From Pseudomonas sp. RC10 (GTDB taxonomy: Bacteria > Pseudomonadota > Gammaproteobacteria > Pseudomonadales > Pseudomonadaceae): DNA of 64,000 bases. Below the pieces are notes generated by a model. That model saw only the letters and a list, made by a program, of their open reading frames with translations, did no database searches and had not been told where the DNA came from. The position numbers and the translations under genes are program-made. Below, piece after piece: positions 28,123 through 37,397 of this stretch. The stretch is taken from contig NZ_CP151650.1 of assembly GCF_038397775.1 (NCBI RefSeq), forward strand, positions 5,971,001-6,035,000. Reading direction: 5' to 3'. How positions within the stretch are numbered: the first letter of the stretch is position 1; every line of letters begins with the position of its first letter.

Positions 28123-28141
28123 GCCCCCTTTCACGATTGAT

Positions 28142-28180
28142 AGTTCCCAAAAAGGGAACTATCGTACCCTTTTTGGGAAT
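28142..28180 (+). promoter_or_regulatory. Paired palindromic operator before the MNT/HEPN-like cassette
   Basis: Two A5/T5-centred palindromes lie side by side: AGTTCCCAAAAAGGGAACT (28142-28160) and TACCCTTTTTGGGAAT (28164-28179). They also form a larger dyad with each other. The second ends 19 bases before the ATG of the next gene, whose product has an N-terminal winged helix, so autorepression is the natural inference. No Shine-Dalgarno is visible before that ATG, so the transcript may be very short-leadered. Confidence 0.75.
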
Positions 28181-28197
28181 TATCTCGTCTAACCACT

Positions 28198-28767
28198 ATG
28201 TCTATCGCCGACGCACTTTTCACCACGACTCAGCAACGGTTACTTAGCCTTCTTTACGGCCATCCTGAAAAAAGCTTTTACACCAATGAAATCAGGCGTT
28301 GGGCAAAAGTGGGAACGGGCAGCATGACGCGAGAGCTCGAGCGACTCCGCTCCGCAGGGATACTGACTGCCACCCGTCTAGGCAATCAAATTCATTATCA
28401 AGCCAACGCTGAATGCACTGTCTATCAGGAGCTGATCGCCATCGTGCGCAAGACCTTTGGCATTGCGGATCACCTCAGGCTGGAACTGTCGCCTCTCGCC
28501 GATCGTATCCAGAGGGCTTTCATTTATGGGTCTATCGCCAAAGGAAGCGCGAACACATCGAGTGACATTGACCTCATGCTGATTGGCGACGGAATCAGCT
28601 ACAGCGATGTGATGGAGCGTATGATCCCGCTCGAAGAGTTGCTGGGCAGAACGATCAATCCAACGCTGTACACACCTGCTGATTGGCAGGCCAAACTCGA
28701 CGCTGGCAACAGCTTTGTAGTGCGGGTATCACAGCAGGAAAAAATCGACATCATTGGAAGTGGCTAG
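28198..28767 (+). CDS. Winged-helix / MNT nucleotidyltransferase fusion, putative antitoxin or regulator
   Basis: A 189-residue protein. Residues 1-75 look like an ArsR-type winged helix (TQQRLLSLLYGHPEKSFYTN, then VGTGSMTRELERLRSAGIL, then an ATRLGNQIHYQAN wing). Residues 100-189 form a minimal nucleotidyltransferase with the GS motif at 111-112 (YGSIAKGSANTSSDIDLML) and metal-binding D123 and D125. MNT proteins paired with HEPN partners can act as antitoxins that AMPylate the HEPN toxin (MntA/HepT type). Here the added winged helix suggests it also binds the operator just upstream. It is probably one operon with the next gene and is foreign to the conserved pilR-thiO junction. Confidence 0.82.
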   Translation: MSIADALFTTTQQRLLSLLYGHPEKSFYTNEIRRWAKVGTGSMTRELERLRSAGILTATRLGNQIHYQANAECTVYQELIAIVRKTFGIADHLRLELSPLADRIQRAFIYGSIAKGSANTSSDIDLMLIGDGISYSDVMERMIPLEELLGRTINPTLYTPADWQAKLDAGNSFVVRVSQQEKIDIIGSG

Positions 28768-28785
28768 AAGAGAGGATCCCACGGA

Positions 28786-29208
28786 ATGGGCAGTCTTGAG
28801 AGTTTGGAAAATCTCGTACGCACCGGCGGGTTAAAACCTGAACCCGCTGACCGGGCCGAATGCATCGGTTTGATTCGTTCCGCATTGGACCGGCTTCAGG
28901 ACGCGCACAATTCGACGCTTTCATACGCCAGCCGTTTCGACCTTGCCTATAACTCTGCACACGCGCTGGCGCTTGCAGCCTTACGTCTGAAAGGCTATCG
29001 ATCAGACCGCCGCTATCTGGTGTTTCAGTGCCTCCCCCACACGATCAATCTGGACAAGGTGCAAGTTCGCCTCTTTGCGCTCTGTCACGAGCGCAGAAAT
29101 CTCGCCGAATACGAAGGCTACATGGATATCGACGAAGCATTACTTGAGGAACTGCTAACAAGCACCGAGAGGCTTCGTCAGTTGGTTGAGAATGAGATGA
29201 AAGTCTAA
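28786..29208 (+). CDS. HEPN-like partner protein of the MNT gene, 140 aa
   Basis: An all-helical small protein 18 bases downstream of the MNT gene with AGAGGA before its ATG. Its size, helix pattern (RSALDRLQDAHNSTLSYASR, FDLAYNSAHALALAALRL) and position fit the HEPN family. However, the classical ribonuclease motif R-X4-6-H is not present: the expected place reads CHERRNLAEYEGY, with RN-x2-EY at 104-109 and no His. It may be a non-nucleolytic HEPN-like subunit or a variant site. The HEPN assignment is therefore by context and overall pattern rather than by an intact motif. Confidence 0.68.
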   Translation: MGSLESLENLVRTGGLKPEPADRAECIGLIRSALDRLQDAHNSTLSYASRFDLAYNSAHALALAALRLKGYRSDRRYLVFQCLPHTINLDKVQVRLFALCHERRNLAEYEGYMDIDEALLEELLTSTERLRQLVENEMKV

Positions 29209-30308: not shown

Positions 30309-30498
30309 GCAGAACCCGATCATCAAGAGAAAATAAACGCCGATCTCCGCCTGCCGCGATGCAGACAAACCGACTCCACAAAGGCTCGAAAACACCACCG
30401 TGCCACTGGTCCGCCGAATATCTCCGACCATCCACTACATAGCGACTTCGAACCTGAGTAGTATCACCATATTTCAAACGAAAAATGGAATTTCCTCG

Positions 30499-31035
30499 AT
30501 GGATTTCAGCTCTGGCATTACGCGCCCGAATTCGCGTCGCAGCTGGCAAGATCCTCTTGGGGGCAAGAGCGGCGGGTTTACCTTGATCGAATTGATGGTG
30601 GTCGTTGTGATCATGGGGATATTTGCGGCGATTGCGATGCCGAGTTTTTCGGGGTTGCTGCATCGGATGAATGTCAGAGCGGCCGCAGATGAGTTCTATG
30701 ACCTGATGCAATACGCGCGGGCCGAGGCAGTGACCCGCGGTACGACGGTGAACATTAGCGCTGCGGTCAATACGACCAACATTATCGTAAAACTGGGGCC
30801 TGGTACGGGATCGGGCTCGGTACTGAGACAGATCGGTGCCAGTGGTTTACAAGCCGGTGTCTCCATCAACTCCGGAACGACCAGCGTCGACTTTTCGTCC
30901 ACCGGCACTGCCTCGACAGCCGCCTGTTTCCAGGTTCTTTATCCGACCGATACCTCGGTTGCTTCTCAGTACGTTGCGTTACAAACCAGCGGCCGCATTA
31001 CCGCTCCTTCCACCACCAAGCCGAGTGGCTGCTGA
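30499..31035 (+). CDS. Minor pilin FimT/FimU (GspH type), first cluster
   Basis: A type IV pilus minor pilin of the GspH/FimT fold. The prepilin leader ends in GKSGG before FTLIELMVVVVIMG, so PilD would cut before the Phe and E+5 is present. The leader from ATG 30499 is unusually long (about 27 residues). The C-terminal globular part has two Cys (TAACFQVLYP and PSGC at the end). At 178 aa it is the first gene of the rightward cluster; the next ATG overlaps its stop (TGATG). Confidence 0.9.
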   Translation: MDFSSGITRPNSRRSWQDPLGGKSGGFTLIELMVVVVIMGIFAAIAMPSFSGLLHRMNVRAAADEFYDLMQYARAEAVTRGTTVNISAAVNTTNIIVKLGPGTGSGSVLRQIGASGLQAGVSINSGTTSVDFSSTGTASTAACFQVLYPTDTSVASQYVALQTSGRITAPSTTKPSGC

Positions 31036-31583
31036 TGAGCTTGTCTGCGCGTCGCCTCAGCGCTGGCTTCAGCATGATCGAAGTGCTGGTGAGCTTGCTC
31101 ATCACAGCCATCGGCGTTCTCGGCATGGTCGCTTTGCAAAGCAAGGCGATTCCTTATACCCAGGACTCGGTGCAGCGTAATACGGCAATGATGCTGGCCG
31201 ATGATCTGCTCGACATCATTCGCACGGCTGGCAGCTGTACCACGGCCAATGGCTGCATCACGCCGCCGGGATCGGATTTCCCGTCCCCTCCGGACAGCTG
31301 TAATCCGACCCCTACAACGCTGTCGGCGCAGATTGGCTGCTGGGCGGCCCAAGCGGGGCGCGCGCTACCGAACGGAAAGGCCCTGCTCAACAGTGCCTTT
31401 TACATCTGCCGAAGTGTCATCCCGGGAGACGTGACAGGCTCCGGTTGCGGCACCAGCAGCGCTACCAATACCGAGGTCGAAATTCAGCTCGCCTGGACGG
31501 TTAAATATGCGGCGGAATGCATGGATCCGAACGTCACTGGCACAAACACCACCTGCACCTACCGCATCAGGACTCGCCTGTAA
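31035..31583 (+). CDS. pilV: Minor pilin PilV, first cluster
   Basis: A type IV pilus minor pilin. The prepilin peptidase site is LSAG before FSMIEVLVSLLITAIGVLG, with E+5. The 182-residue product has several Cys in the globular part (SCTTANGC, DSCNPT, QIGCWA). The start overlaps the fimT stop, and the stop TAATG overlaps pilW. PilV, PilW and PilX bring PilY1 to the pilus tip and prime assembly (family knowledge). Confidence 0.93.
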   Translation: MSLSARRLSAGFSMIEVLVSLLITAIGVLGMVALQSKAIPYTQDSVQRNTAMMLADDLLDIIRTAGSCTTANGCITPPGSDFPSPPDSCNPTPTTLSAQIGCWAAQAGRALPNGKALLNSAFYICRSVIPGDVTGSGCGTSSATNTEVEIQLAWTVKYAAECMDPNVTGTNTTCTYRIRTRL

Positions 31584-32371
31584 TGAATCACCCAGCGACG
31601 CTTGCCGGATTACGACGGCATCAACGAGGACTGTCTTTGATCGAGCTGATGATCGCTATGCTCATCGGCCTGTTTTTGATACTCGGCGTCACTCAGATCT
31701 TCATCAACAACCAGAAAAGCTATTTGTTTCAACAAGGCCAATCGGGCAATCAGGAGAACGCACGGTTCTCGCTCGCCGTGTTGAATCAGGAACTCTCCAA
31801 GGCGGGCTACCGAAGCAAGCCGACCACATCGTTTCCACTTGGCGCGGGTCAAGGGTGCACCTTCCCTGATGGAACATCGGTCATCGCCGTATCGGCGACC
31901 TCGCTGTGCATTCGCTACCAGGCAGCCAACAAGAGCGATGTGAATTGCCAGGGCGCGGCACTGAGCAATGGTGATCAGGACACCATCCTCAATCCTTATC
32001 AGCAAGCCAACCCGATCGTGGTCGAAAAAATCTGGTTCGACGGAGGTACCAACTCGATCAGTTGCACGTCCGGATCGACGACTCAGCAACTGGTCACCGG
32101 CGTGGCGGCAGTGAACTTCGAATACGGCTTCGGACAGAAAGAAAAGAAAGCCGTCACCGGCTATGCCACGAACCCGACCGACACCGTTTTTGCCGTGCGC
32201 TATTCGGTGTTGATGCAAAGCCCGGGTACCGCATCGTTACGCGACTCAGCCACAGCCACATCGAAAGCATTGGCTGAATGGAACGCACGATTCAATACCA
32301 ACCTTGCTGAGGGTAATCAGATCTACCAGCTCGTTCAGGGCACCACCATGTTGAGGAATCAGATGCAATGA
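31583..32371 (+). CDS. pilW: Minor pilin PilW, first cluster
   Basis: A type IV pilus minor pilin of 262 residues. ATG 31583 overlaps the pilV stop by one base. The leader ends in HQRG before LSLIELMIAMLIGLFLILG with E+5. The PilW-specific region NQENARFSLAVLNQELSKAGYR is present. The start at 31517 in the longer open frame is rejected because it would bury the leader. Confidence 0.93.
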   Translation: MNHPATLAGLRRHQRGLSLIELMIAMLIGLFLILGVTQIFINNQKSYLFQQGQSGNQENARFSLAVLNQELSKAGYRSKPTTSFPLGAGQGCTFPDGTSVIAVSATSLCIRYQAANKSDVNCQGAALSNGDQDTILNPYQQANPIVVEKIWFDGGTNSISCTSGSTTQQLVTGVAAVNFEYGFGQKEKKAVTGYATNPTDTVFAVRYSVLMQSPGTASLRDSATATSKALAEWNARFNTNLAEGNQIYQLVQGTTMLRNQMQ

Positions 32372-32928
32372 GCCTCGATATGATGAGCCAATCGATGAGT
32401 CGTCATCGACAGACCGGCGCAACGTTACTGGTCGCAATCATGATGCTGTTGATCATCACGCTGCTGGCCCTGTCGAGCATGCGGGGCGTGTCGCTGGAAT
32501 CACGCATCACCGGCAACCTGAAAAACCAAAAGACCCTGTTCAACGCCGCCGAAGGGGCATTGCGAATAGGCGAGAACAGTGTCAGCTACACCAAAGCGCC
32601 ATCACTGGACAGCGTATGCACGGCCGCTTCTTGCGTGCGCTGGGGGCTTAAAGACCTCACCGCGACCGCTGGCAAAGACACGCCCCCGCGCTTCACGACA
32701 GGTGACCTCAATAACGTGACCAGCGTGACGACTAACTACGCCGTCAAGGTCCAGTGGTACGTAGTGGACCTCGGCAATTTGGTCGGTTCCAGCCAGGGAA
32801 ATGATTTCGCGACTGGCAAAGGCCCGCACCACTATGAAGTCAATGCCTGTGCCTCAACGGTACTGTGCACCAGCGATACGACCACCCCGCGCGTTATCCT
32901 GCGCACTGTCATTGCCCGGTATTACTAA
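32368..32928 (+). CDS. pilX: Minor pilin PilX, first cluster
   Basis: A 186-residue PilX_N family minor pilin. The leader ends in RQTG before ATLLVAIMMLLIITLLALS. As usual for PilX/GspK-like subunits, position +5 is not Glu. The motif SRITGNLKNQKTLFNAAEGA follows the helix. It overlaps pilW by four bases (ATGA) and pilY1 by one, which implies tight translational coupling through the operon. Confidence 0.93.
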   Translation: MSLDMMSQSMSRHRQTGATLLVAIMMLLIITLLALSSMRGVSLESRITGNLKNQKTLFNAAEGALRIGENSVSYTKAPSLDSVCTAASCVRWGLKDLTATAGKDTPPRFTTGDLNNVTSVTTNYAVKVQWYVVDLGNLVGSSQGNDFATGKGPHHYEVNACASTVLCTSDTTTPRVILRTVIARYY

Positions 32929-35900
32929 TGAACAAACGCCAGTACTGGACCGCCTTGCGCACGTCCAAAGCAGTGAAGCTGGTCGCAGCGCTCATGGCCG
33001 CCTGCGCGATGACACACCCTACGGCGCAGGCCGCCGTGAGCCAAGTGCCCGCGCAAGTGCCGTTATTCGTCAATAACTCAGTGCCACCCTTGAATATGTT
33101 GGTGGTTGGCCGGGACCATAAATTGTTCTTCCCGGCCTATAACGACGCTTCCGATCTGGACGGCGATGGCACGATCGATATCCGCTACAAGCCCTCGATC
33201 GATTACCTCGGCTATTTTGACTCGTTCACCTGCTACACCTACTCGAACGGATATTTCACCGCCTCGTCGAACACCACCAAGGCCAGTCTGAAAACCTGCC
33301 CCGGAACATGGAGTGGCGATTACCTCAACTACCTGACCACTTCTCGGGCGGACGCCCTGCGCAAGGTGCTGTACGGCGGCTATCGCAGCACCGATACCGC
33401 CACTCAGACGATTTTGGAGCGCGCTTATATTCCGACGGATGCGCACACGTGGGGCAAGGAATACAACAGCCCGACCATCGACGGGTACAACCTCTCCGAC
33501 TACACGCCTATCGCTAATCCCTCCGGCGGCAACCGCGCGCTGTTCGCTAACAACACTCAAGTATCTGCACCGCTGCTACGGGTAATTCCGAGCATCGCCA
33601 ACGTGCGTATCTTCGGCTGGGTTTCCCGCGAAACCACACAAGGCGGCGTCAGAGCGACTGACACGACCACCACCCCTTTTACCGACGTAACCGTCTCTCC
33701 GACGGATTACAACGTGCGGGTGGAAGTGTGCAAAAAAGATCCGGTCATCCCCCTTGAAAGCAACTGCAAGGTGTACCCCAACGGCAATGCCAAGCCCACC
33801 GGCATCCTTCACGACTATGGTGAAGGCAACCAGATGTACTTCGGATTGATGACCGGCACCTATCAAAACAACCTTCAAGGTGGGGCGATCCGTAAGGCCA
33901 TCAGTAGCTTTGCCAACGAAGTGGATACCTCCACCGGTATTTTCGGCACCCCCAATGCGGCAGGTACTGCCTACACCAAAGGGGGGATCATCAGCACCCT
34001 GGATAACCTGAGAATTTCGAAAGGCGCGTGCACGACGCAGGGCAACTCTATCGACAACGGCACCTGTCAGGACTGGGGCAACCCGTTGGCAGAAATGATG
34101 TTCGAGACCCTGCGCTACTTCAGTGGCGTCAACGGCACTGCACAGGCCACGCCTACCGCCGGCTACCAGTCGGGTGCGAGCGATACATTGCTCGGACTCT
34201 CAGGCCTCAGTACATGGTCCAACCCCTACTCTGCCAACCCGAATCCGGACGCAAACCCGCCGACCTATCCCAGTTGCTCAAAACCCTTCCAGACGCTGTT
34301 CAGCGACATCAGCCCGACGTATGACTCCGATTTACCAGGTAGTGCATACACCACGTCCAATCCGCCGGCCACCACCACGGCGCTGGCGAATTTCAGTGCC
34401 TCGTCGCTGGGCCAGACGATCTGGAACAACGACGTCGGCACTGGCAGTAAAAACATCAACATCGGCCAGACGCCCACCTTGAACGACTTGGCCCCCACTG
34501 CCAAAAGCGCGTCGAGTCTGGGCAATATTCGCGGCTTGCCGGAAGAGCCTGCCAAACAGGGGACGTTCAACGCCGGGGCCGTGGCTTACTTTGGCAACAC
34601 CAATCCTATCAGTTCGGTGGGTAGCCAGAAGGTGCAGACCTTCTCTATCGCGCTGTCTTCGACATTGCCTCGCATTCAAATGCCTGTGGGGACGGGGACT
34701 ATCACGCTGCTGCCTTTCGGCAAGGTCGTGAACACCAACGGCGTGACTGAACAGATCACCGGGTTCTATATCGACTCGCTGTACAACATGCCGGGCCAGC
34801 CTACCAACCCCAACATCAACGGCGGTCGGGCTCAGGCTGTGTTCCGCGTTGTGTTCGACGACAGCGGGCAGGGTGGCGACTATGACATGGACGCCATCGT
34901 GCTCTACACCGTTTCGGTGATTGGCTCGGGCTCGACCGCAACCCTCGATGTGCGTCTTGAAACCCAGTATTCCCAAGCGGGCTATGAGTCCCATATGGGC
35001 TACACGATTTCCGGCACAACGCAGGATGGTATCTATCTGGAAGTGACCGGCGGCGGTAACGGCAACCAGCACTATTCGCTGGATACACCCGGCACCCAGT
35101 TGCCCGGATCATGCGCCACAGGTTGCACGACCTCCGCCACGCTGCTGCCCGGAATGAGGTCAGGTAGCACGGTGGTCAATGGCGCGACATTCAAAACCCG
35201 TAACTTCACGCCGTCGTCCGCGCGCTCGGTTACCAATCTCATGGACCCGCTTTGGTATGCCGCGAAATGGGGTGGATTTGGTGATTCGAGTAACACCTCC
35301 ACAAGCTTGCCAGCGGCTGGGCAATGGGACTCTAACAAGCCTGGAACACCTGACAACTATTTCCTGGTCAGCAGCGCATCGACGCTCAAGGCCCAGTTGC
35401 AGGCGGCGTTCAGTCAGATACTGCAAAAAAACACCTCGGTAGCGCCGCCTGCAGCAGTCCCGCCGCCAAACTCCGCATCCACGTCGACGTCAACGTACAC
35501 CGACAGTTTTAATGTCACGCTTTGGAGTGGCGATCTGACGAAAAGCACCGAAACGTACGACACCACAGGCACCAGCAAAACCGCAACGGTGAACTGGAAC
35601 GCCTCGGAAAAGCTCCCGGCGCCGGATCGCAGGACGATCAAGATCGCCAATGCGGCGGGGAACGGGCTGGTGGACTTCACGTACAGCAACCTTGCCAACC
35701 GCAGCTTTGCGGGGACCAACTGGCAGTACTCCTCATCGAATCAGACAGGTCTTACCTCCGATCAGGTCTCATTTCTGCGAGGCGTGCGCACGCTCGAAGG
35801 TTCCGGGAACTGGCGTCGGCGTCTGACGCCGTTAGGCGATATCGTCAACTCGCAACCGGTGGTCGTGGACTCGGCGACATTTCTCACATCTATGGGCGAC

Positions 35901-37397
35901 TTCCTCAGCGGGGCAACGAAGTACGCAGCGTTCCAGACCAAGGCCAGCGGACGCCGCTCGCAGGTTTACGTTGGCGCCAACGACGGCATGCTGCATGGCT
36001 TCAATACCTCGACGGGCGCGGAGACATTCGCGTTCATTCCGTCTGCGGTCGTCTCAGGTTTGAGCGTTCTGACGAACAAGACTTACAACACCGACTCTTC
36101 CTTGCACCGTTTCTACGTTGACGGTACGCCGATCGTTTCCGACGTGTATTTCAGCAGCGACAACGAATGGCATACGGTACTGGTGGGCACATTGGGCGGC
36201 GGAGGCAAGGAAGTGTTTGCGCTGGATGTGACCGATCCCGACAACGTCAAACTGTTGTGGGAATTCACGTCACAGACCGACACAGATCTGGGCTACACCT
36301 ATTCCACGCCCTATATTTCCAAACTGCACACCGGTGACTGGGGCGTCATTTTCGGCAGCGGCTACAACGGCAACAACGGCAATGCCAGCCTGTTCATCCT
36401 TAACGCCGAAACAGGTGCAAGCATTGCCAAGCTGACCACGCCGGCCAGCAACCCCAAAGTGGATAACGGGTTGTCCAGCCCGGTCATCCTGGATGCCAAC
36501 TCCGATGGCATCGCCGACTATGCTTATGCCGGCGACTTGCTGGGCAACCTGTGGCGCTTTGACTTGATCAAACCTGGCTCGTTGACCGATCCCGCCGTGG
36601 CAAGCAATTACAAAGTCTCTTTCGCAAGTAAACCTTTATTCACCGCATCGGCACCGACTGCAGGGGCCGCGGCGCAGTCGATCACGGCGCCTCCCGTGGT
36701 GTGGCCGCACCCATCAGGGACCGGTACGCTGATCATTTTCGGCACGGGACGCTACTTCACTTCGGCGGACAAGACGAGTACCGATCTCCAGTCCCTTTAC
36801 GGTATATGGGACCCTCTGACGGCAGGACAAACGGCAACTGCGCCTGCAGGGACCACTGCACAAGCCGCTTTGAGTCGCAGCAATCTGCAGGCACAAACGA
36901 TGTCCACAGCCAATGGTTCGATTGGAAGCGTCACTGGACTCAGGACGGTTTCCACCAATGGTGTCGACTGGTCCACCAAATACGGCTGGTACCTGGATCT
37001 GAGGAGCGGAACCACGGCGACCGGTGAACGAATGGTCGACTTGCTCGATATTCAGGGAAGCGTCCTGTTCGTCGCCACCCGTACGCCCATTACCGGCGTG
37101 TGCGATGCGGGGGTCCAAGGCAAACGTCTGGGACTTGATCCGAACACCGGGGGAGCAACGGCATTTTCAATCTTTGACTTTTCCCGCAATGGCATCATTG
37201 GCGTCGAAGACACGCTGTCGGGCGCCATCATCAGTGGGTTTGATTCGGCCGCCGGTGGCTTTGCGGTCGTTGCAGGTAACGGACCTTCAGGATTGTCGAC
37301 CGTCTATAACGGCGATGGACTCAACAGTGCCATGCTTGCGTTTACCGGCTTTCAGTACAGTGGTCGTCAATCCTGGCGCGTGATCCCATCACCTTGA
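32928..37397 (+). CDS. pilY1: Pilus tip adhesin and biogenesis factor PilY1
   Basis: A 1,489-residue exported protein, longer than the roughly 1,160 residues I recall for P. aeruginosa PilY1. ATG 32928 overlaps the pilX stop; the signal peptide ends near PTAQA. A dockerin-like calcium loop DLDGDGTID is at 76-84. I saw no VWA MIDAS (DxSxS). The C-terminal half is the PilC/PilY beta-propeller (VYVGANDGMLHGFN, FALDVTDPDNVKLLWEF), with the calcium loop DANSDGIAD at 1189-1197 just before YAGDLLGNLWRFDL. In homologues that site controls pilus retraction. It is the only pilY1 in the window, although two minor pilin sets are present. Confidence 0.95.
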   Translation: MNKRQYWTALRTSKAVKLVAALMAACAMTHPTAQAAVSQVPAQVPLFVNNSVPPLNMLVVGRDHKLFFPAYNDASDLDGDGTIDIRYKPSIDYLGYFDSFTCYTYSNGYFTASSNTTKASLKTCPGTWSGDYLNYLTTSRADALRKVLYGGYRSTDTATQTILERAYIPTDAHTWGKEYNSPTIDGYNLSDYTPIANPSGGNRALFANNTQVSAPLLRVIPSIANVRIFGWVSRETTQGGVRATDTTTTPFTDVTVSPTDYNVRVEVCKKDPVIPLESNCKVYPNGNAKPTGILHDYGEGNQMYFGLMTGTYQNNLQGGAIRKAISSFANEVDTSTGIFGTPNAAGTAYTKGGIISTLDNLRISKGACTTQGNSIDNGTCQDWGNPLAEMMFETLRYFSGVNGTAQATPTAGYQSGASDTLLGLSGLSTWSNPYSANPNPDANPPTYPSCSKPFQTLFSDISPTYDSDLPGSAYTTSNPPATTTALANFSASSLGQTIWNNDVGTGSKNINIGQTPTLNDLAPTAKSASSLGNIRGLPEEPAKQGTFNAGAVAYFGNTNPISSVGSQKVQTFSIALSSTLPRIQMPVGTGTITLLPFGKVVNTNGVTEQITGFYIDSLYNMPGQPTNPNINGGRAQAVFRVVFDDSGQGGDYDMDAIVLYTVSVIGSGSTATLDVRLETQYSQAGYESHMGYTISGTTQDGIYLEVTGGGNGNQHYSLDTPGTQLPGSCATGCTTSATLLPGMRSGSTVVNGATFKTRNFTPSSARSVTNLMDPLWYAAKWGGFGDSSNTSTSLPAAGQWDSNKPGTPDNYFLVSSASTLKAQLQAAFSQILQKNTSVAPPAAVPPPNSASTSTSTYTDSFNVTLWSGDLTKSTETYDTTGTSKTATVNWNASEKLPAPDRRTIKIANAAGNGLVDFTYSNLANRSFAGTNWQYSSSNQTGLTSDQVSFLRGVRTLEGSGNWRRRLTPLGDIVNSQPVVVDSATFLTSMGDFLSGATKYAAFQTKASGRRSQVYVGANDGMLHGFNTSTGAETFAFIPSAVVSGLSVLTNKTYNTDSSLHRFYVDGTPIVSDVYFSSDNEWHTVLVGTLGGGGKEVFALDVTDPDNVKLLWEFTSQTDTDLGYTYSTPYISKLHTGDWGVIFGSGYNGNNGNASLFILNAETGASIAKLTTPASNPKVDNGLSSPVILDANSDGIADYAYAGDLLGNLWRFDLIKPGSLTDPAVASNYKVSFASKPLFTASAPTAGAAAQSITAPPVVWPHPSGTGTLIIFGTGRYFTSADKTSTDLQSLYGIWDPLTAGQTATAPAGTTAQAALSRSNLQAQTMSTANGSIGSVTGLRTVSTNGVDWSTKYGWYLDLRSGTTATGERMVDLLDIQGSVLFVATRTPITGVCDAGVQGKRLGLDPNTGGATAFSIFDFSRNGIIGVEDTLSGAIISGFDSAAGGFAVVAGNGPSGLSTVYNGDGLNSAMLAFTGFQYSGRQSWRVIPSP

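Follow-up and report, generated by a model that had tools for sequence, protein, structure and literature searches.

A probable self-repressing HEPN/MNT toxin–antitoxin-type module of the PDC-M05 family at the pilR–thiO junction of Pseudomonas sp. RC10

The pilR–thiO cassette and its two products

The window analyzed here, a 64,000-nucleotide stretch of the Pseudomonas sp. RC10 genome, carries two plus-strand genes between pilR and thiO, with two DNA dyads ahead of the first. Gene A (28198..28767) encodes a 189-residue protein that matches the PADLOC family PDC-M05A and is proposed below to act as antitoxin and autorepressor. Gene B (28786..29208), 18 nt further on in the list of open reading frames, encodes a 140-residue HEPN-fold protein that matches PDC-M05B and is the proposed toxin. 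The pilR–thiO spacer measures 10–168 nt and lacks both genes in 17 of 30 thiO loci from relatives (12 were unmeasurable), versus 1088 nt in this genome, so the first-pass annotation was correct to describe a two-gene unit that interrupts a conserved junction.

Intact pairs occupy this junction in the window and at three further loci (L012, L013, and L028), and two genomes (G256 and G407) have an intact A with a frameshifted B in the same place. In G020 (locus L146; pilR 89% identical), both genes are absent from the junction, and an apparent decayed operator pair is left that agrees with the consensus at 32 of 43 positions, where 5000 letter shuffles reached 25 at most; this empty junction looks like the scar of a lost cassette. 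Given the coexistence of intact, B-frameshifted, and scar states, the cassette probably entered the junction before the group split and is now being lost from it.

At the downstream end, gene B and the convergent thiO overlap in their stop codons (29205–29208), and the window scan called no terminator-like site between the two. Beyond thiO (30400–37397), the list of open reading frames holds products resembling what we take to be type IV pilus minor pilins and a large PilY1-like protein.

The product of gene A combines a winged helix (approximately residues 1–87) with a minimal nucleotidyltransferase (MNT) domain (approximately residues 88–189), the fusion anticipated by the first-pass annotation. 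It matches PF18765 (Polbeta) in Pfam with an E-value of 9.4e-8, PF01909 (NTP_transf_2) with 22.3 bits, above the cut-off of 21, and PDC-M05A with an E-value of 2.5e-81 over residues 2–188 of 189; the predicted fold of its AlphaFold2 model (pLDDT 88.4) matches solved structures of ArsR regulators and MNT antitoxins. The active site had been described as intact, and this holds for the GS-x10-DxD motif (G111, S112, D123, and D125; 28528..28572, plus strand), which is kept in 200 of 200 homologous loci, not all of them independent and several sharing one genome. The site is, however, incomplete, with Asn154–Pro155 (28657..28662, plus strand) where MntA carries its third catalytic carboxylate. By sequence alignment, with 12 of the 200 loci lying outside the search pattern and read by eye, the gene A homologs have Asn (195), Ser (4), or His (1) at this position and never Asp or Glu, whereas MntA sequences beside HepT read "VD" or "ID" in 11 of 11 rows, two of which are identical. 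The equivalent acid of AadA, E87, is presumably the catalytic base, and AadA E87Q occurs in PDB titles among the structure matches. Gene A looks like a protein whose nucleotide-binding part is intact and whose usual Pol-beta catalytic base is missing; with the third acid absent, AMPylation of B is doubtful.

Gene B is modeled as a helical bundle that matches solved HEPN domains when its AlphaFold2 model is compared with the PDB, the nearest fold being 2hsb (UPF0332/HEPN), and the earlier reading of a small, helical, HEPN-like second protein is borne out. Profile comparison was less uniform: PDC-M05B is matched with an E-value of 9.2e-64 over residues 5–137 of 140, but there is no Pfam match above cut-off and no HEPN match in Pfam or NCBIfam. 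Searched alone against the sequences of solved structures, gene B gives no match at E ≤ 1; PF05168 finds 12 of 39 relatives at E ≤ 0.01 and not the window protein; and an hhalign comparison of the gene B profile with class I HepT is not significant (probability 0.3%). The Rx4HxY motif of HepT is replaced by R104-N-L-A-E-Y109-E-G111 (29095..29118, plus strand), an Rx4Y version in which the catalytic His has become Tyr and the position of the AMP-accepting Tyr has become Gly. R104, Y109, and G111 are invariant in all 39 aligned sequences, which include a distant branch only 30–34% identical to the window protein, and gene B is strongly conserved wherever it is present. The 2hsb sequence carries R-E-E-S-D-Y where gene B has R-N-L-A-E-Y, in a weak sequence match (E 0.035). 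HEPN proteins without the motif are described in part of PMC3710099 as effective toxins, and a Legionella HEPN protein that has it was judged unlikely to be catalytic in a passage of PMC11586414.

A promoter with built-in dyads

Consensus scanning and conserved spacing place a predicted promoter for the pair at 28137..28165 on the plus strand, with a -35 element TTGATA (28137–28142), a 17-bp spacer, and a -10 element TATCGT (28160–28165). Operator 1, a GTTCCC-N5-GGGAAC dyad (28143..28159), exactly occupies the spacer with its 6-5-6 layout. Operator 2, a GTACCC-N5-GGGAAT dyad (28164..28180), starts 21 bp, or two helical turns, after the start of operator 1 and overlaps the end of the -10 element and the predicted transcription start, which gives the order TTGATA - GTTCCC AAAAA GGGAAC - TATC - GTACCC TTTTT GGGAAT. 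A perfect 10-bp inverted repeat (28139–28148/28154–28163) and a 21-bp pair with 90% complementarity (28139–28159/28164–28184) lie in the same stretch. Allowing up to three mismatches, a 25-bp pattern has one match in the window and none in 100 shuffles, and the degenerate operator, searched in the 6,711,602-base single-contig genome, finds just the two sites described here; a reversed-pattern control has one forward and one reverse match.

Support for the promoter comes from its conservation in homologs and not from the consensus scan, as a stand-alone sigma-70 scan is not significant (one found, shuffle mean 0.9). Most of the homologous loci open to inspection keep the -35/-10 spacing ahead of gene A. 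Upstream regions were compared for 116 loci (97 distinct regions), and, among the regions listed, the promoter–operator cassette is nearly constant within the window's branch though the neighboring genes differ. A class-level sample took in 64 of the 369 genomes that gave a hit to a distant A; the layout recurs there in many upstream regions, built from different half-sites (for example, GTTCAT, AGACCC, ATACCC, and ATCCCC).

Covariation was assessed in regions anchored on the -35/-10 elements only, not on symmetry, with 2000 shuffles of the arms and one locus per 90, 80, 70, or 60% protein cluster (65 of 73, 37 of 45, 20 of 28, and 14 of 20 loci anchored, respectively). Operator 1 covaries, its complementarity of 0.78, 0.76, 0.71, and 0.73 at these four levels comparing with 0.71, 0.68, 0.68, and 0.71 in the best shuffle and with 0.13–0.35 in slid frames. 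Operator 2 is conserved; its complementarity (0.66, 0.65, 0.63, and 0.56) lies above the best shuffle (0.64, 0.65, 0.64, and 0.61) at 90%, ties with it at 80%, and falls below it at 70 and 60%, so that its covariation, at the limit of the shuffles, is not clear. Six to eight representative loci per level were unanchored, and L006, L007, and L202 carry other dyads or none that could be named. At L074 and L086, and perhaps L099, a further dyad (for example, AGTCCC-N5-GGGACT) lies about 40 bp before operator 1.

The conserved promoter–operator layout, the covariation of operator 1, and the restriction of the pattern to one locus in the genome are strong sequence-level evidence for local self-control of the pair through the predicted operators, the role suggested for the paired palindromes at the outset. 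That the palindromes are nothing more than the transcription terminator of pilR is highly improbable. A terminator-like hairpin with a T-rich tail does lie at 28138–28164 (one found, shuffle mean 1.4), and both functions could coexist, but an element phased to the -35 and -10 precedes gene A beside differing neighbors and the arms of operator 1 covary, and the terminator-only reading was rejected.

Unequal loss of the two genes

Both genes were searched in the same 398 genomes of the genus. Gene A gave hits in 76, and after six weak, MNT-only hits had been dropped (E 3.9e-5 to 8.5e-4), 66 of the remaining 70 genomes have a full-length A without stops and four have a broken A. Gene B gave hits in 64 of the 398 genomes, and doubtful loci were resolved by piecewise matching of their DNA. 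Beside the 66 intact A genes, B is intact in 46 genomes, broken or missing in 18, and ambiguous in two (an in-frame deletion in G204 and a short C-terminus in G020), and none of the 46 intact B genes accompanies a broken A. Both genes are broken, fragmentary, or not found in six genomes (G145, G327, G357, G404, G186, and G180). Remnants of B were seen in the first search in 11 of the 18 genomes that have lost it, and the seven without a hit comprise three with an N-terminal remnant and four with none; in some of the 18, for example G142 and G237, the only damage is an early stop or a frameshift, after which a downstream restart and a shorter product are possible. Because A is the longer target, chance would favor damage to A.

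A quick tree was built from 58 A genes (the 18 with broken B and 40 others, including G204; eight of the 66 were left out), and the state of B changes on it at least 17 times, 13 of these changes being forced by supported branches. We read the changes as losses of B, and they are scattered at the tips of the tree.

As a positive control, we used an MntA–HepT-type pair (PF01934, Rx4HxY) in 298 genomes of the genus; the type is experimentally established and has a proven toxin as its second gene, and this Pseudomonas pair is a putative case of it. HepT is intact beside 19 of 34 full-length MntA genes of at least 70% identity and is broken (six) or without a hit (nine) beside the other 15, whereas none of the 19 intact HepT genes lacks an intact MntA; these counts come from search tables, with 11 MntA rows of at most 57% identity left out. 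Two more genomes have a HepT fragment and no close MntA. The fact that, in the genomes searched, A outlasts B in 18 cases and the reverse was not seen, with the same bias in the MntA–HepT-type pair, points to B as the toxin and A as the antitoxin, and this asymmetry of 18 to 0 agrees with the toxin/antitoxin-like split of roles first suspected. An independent function of A, combined with a B that the cell can simply do without, would produce this bias as well.

An orphan winged-helix–MNT gene with conserved operator and motif and no intact HEPN partner is present in G005, G318, G349, G376, and 14 other genomes of the genus, GSx10DxD and a recognizable operator being kept in 18 of 18. The dyad-1 positions that remain paired average 4.7 of 6 in the orphan loci versus 4.6 in the 40 others, and the median pairwise dN/dS of gene A (0.099 versus 0.091) stays at about 0.09–0.10 with or without B. 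The orphaning of A may be recent, and the orphan genes may serve as antidotes against incoming copies.

Known relatives, proposed working, and meaning

Both proteins match their profiles over nearly their full length, which makes the pair a member of PADLOC PDC-M05, a named phage-defense candidate, and not a new system. In the relevant part of PMC12988326, PDC-M05 is presented as a nucleotidyltransferase plus a HEPN protein, enriched in archaea, toxin–antitoxin-like, and with an antiviral role that is unconfirmed; operator, decay pattern, and catalytic residues are not mentioned there. A homologous PDC-M05A is reported in a section of PMC12584637 to be upregulated during phage infection in Burkholderia cenocepacia. 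New here are the operators built into the promoter, the decay asymmetry, the lack of Rx4HxY in B, and the lack of the third acid in A.

The family is common: at E ≤ 0.001, A has 3414 homologs and B has 6947. The "extra" DNA-binding domain of the first-pass annotation is indeed present as a fusion, but the architecture is already catalogued as PDC-M05, with thousands of homologs. Gene A lies directly upstream of gene B in all 80 B loci from genome contigs that were compared (the best 80 of 195), 22 plasmid records carry a homolog of A, all below 60% identity, and gene B is without a match among 50,697 phage records. Within the fluorescens group, the pair sits at many loci between a CheA-type gene (about 26 of 80 loci), presumably chpA, and malonate decarboxylase genes. 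PADLOC, applied to 64 of 74 flanking open reading frames beside 20 of the 80 loci, returned 33 families, each from one reading frame; the matches listed include a type III restriction–modification system and the single PDC candidates S04, S06, S18, S31, and M37B. In this sample of 20 of 80 loci, defense-type genes lie beside a few copies but form no consistent island, and the defense-island idea was dropped; neighbor lists are rough, since the open reading frame caller took wrong frames in GC-rich DNA.

Among studied systems, class I MntA/HepT (type VII toxin–antitoxin) pairs share with ours the order of MNT first and HEPN second, GSx10DxD, the HEPN fold, and the loss pattern in Pseudomonas. 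They differ in that our B has no Rx4HxY, the third acid of our MNT domain is Asn, and a winged helix and an operator are added; gene A also stays below the NCBIfam MntA_antitoxin cut-off (26.2 versus 60 bits). Because these defining features of class I (Rx4HxY, the third Asp, and the NCBIfam score) were looked for and are lacking, class I membership was rejected and the pair is filed under PDC-M05 as a HEPN/MNT variant. The earlier statement that it resembles MntA/HepT or a defense module stands as far as its toxin–antitoxin-like character and its place among PDC-M05 candidates are concerned, but not for the HepT RNase motif, which B lacks. Class II HEPN/MNT pairs (PF05168/PF01909) resemble ours in having a conserved Tyr without Rx4H, as set out in part of PMC7641770, together with GSx10DxD and PF01909 in the MNT domain; however, the window B has no PF05168 match, and section 22 of that paper does not mention a winged-helix fusion. 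The toxicity tests in PMC7641770, as far as that account goes, concern class I pairs only, and HEPN is the toxin in the tested HEPN–MNT pairs.

Gene A is similar to the ArsR/SmtB repressors (BigR, SqrR, and AntR) in fold only, scoring 22.2 bits against a curated cut-off of 55, and differs from them in carrying an MNT domain. Its similarity to the Hailong nucleotidyltransferase HalB is weak and confined to the surroundings of the GS motif (19 bits, cut-off 190). Elsewhere in this genome, outside the window, a HepT-like PF01934 protein (76.8 bits) and an MntA-like MNT protein (39% identity) are encoded far apart (G000:C1:1820697-1821044 and 923796-924074). The relevant parts of PMC6929052, PMC12839542, and PMC10127717 describe no winged-helix fusion of this kind. 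A literature search without bioRxiv and most subscription journals yielded no paper that we recognized as dealing with an operator of winged-helix MNT/HEPN pairs, and the literature examined held no toxicity, binding, or anti-phage results for this pair.

The domains and folds, the promoter–operator layout, the restriction to one locus, and the one-sided loss of B across the searched genomes are computational observations. We consider it probable that the cassette is an autoregulated, self-repressing toxin–antitoxin-type module of the HEPN/MNT kind, PDC-M05; its DNA binding, toxicity, neutralization, trigger, and any anti-phage role are what we infer. B, a HEPN protein that lacks the customary RNase motif, would be the toxin and probably stops growth through an action on RNA or by binding it, and A would be antitoxin and repressor in one chain. 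The ArsR-type winged helix of A would bind the two 6-5-6 dyads, two helical turns apart, on one face of the helix, and A seated on the spacer and transcription start would shut the operon. Its MNT domain would bind nucleotide and hold or modify B, most plausibly at the invariant Tyr109, and B would be kept inactive either by AMPylation there or by binding alone. When free A falls, or its nucleotide state changes, B would be released and the promoter would reopen.

Within this scheme, A may be a pseudo-nucleotidyltransferase that binds ATP/Mg through GSx10DxD without transfer, working as a repressor that senses nucleotide and retains B by binding alone, such that a change in nucleotide level releases promoter and toxin together. 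We regard this as possible, if doubtful: the universal DxD and the third-acid position, Asp in MntA and almost always Asn here, would fit it, as would the role we assume for AadA E87, but B has, where its HEPN motif ends, a conserved Tyr that resembles an AMP acceptor, the part of the base could be taken by other residues, and the position match comes from sequence alignment across loci that are not all independent. It is unlikely that the pair is no toxin–antitoxin system at all, with A a local regulator or antidote that has its own function and B a nontoxic, dispensable gene in passive decay. The 18 of 66 genomes in which A and its operator outlast B, and a dN/dS of A near 0.1 in either setting, are what one would expect from it, but the MntA–HepT-type pair has the same bias, 15 to 0, the losses of B are scattered at the tips, and B is strongly conserved where present. 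Reversed roles, with the nucleotidyltransferase as toxin and the HEPN protein as antitoxin, are very unlikely, and this reading was rejected. Some nucleotidyltransferases are toxins (MenT), and a 2009 prediction for HEPN–MNT pairs, found in a part of PMC2701414, cast HEPN as the antitoxin while doubting that it regulates transcription; against this assignment speak A standing alone in 18 genomes, the absence of an intact B without A in the genomes searched, and the HEPN toxicity reported in PMC7641770.

Our preferred reading remains the self-repressing module with B as the probable toxin. HEPN/MNT is perhaps the most abundant two-gene toxin–antitoxin module of prokaryotes, according to a passage of PMC7641770, and little is said of its regulation in that passage and the other literature examined. 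In the present pair, the MNT domain comes fused to a DNA-binding domain, and the operator is legible in the sequence even of distant homologs; this makes self-control testable, and the promoter would be a ready reporter for the trigger of a named defense candidate. Comparing the decay of two partner genes costs little, needs nothing but genomes, and can suggest which of them encodes the toxin; an MntA–HepT-type pair examined in this way behaved alike. The two kinds of pair also allow an AMPylating antitoxin to be set beside one that may be noncatalytic, a comparison provided by nature. More speculatively, and in our view rather improbably, this HEPN/MNT branch may have turned an enzyme antitoxin into a nucleotide-sensing repressor, keeping the ATP/Mg motif, losing the catalytic base, fusing a winged helix, and holding a non-RNase HEPN toxin. 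If so, a single chain would read the nucleotide state, keep hold of the toxin, and control its own promoter through the two dyads, and toxin release would follow a fall or change in nucleotide, for example, during phage infection, rather than AMPylation.
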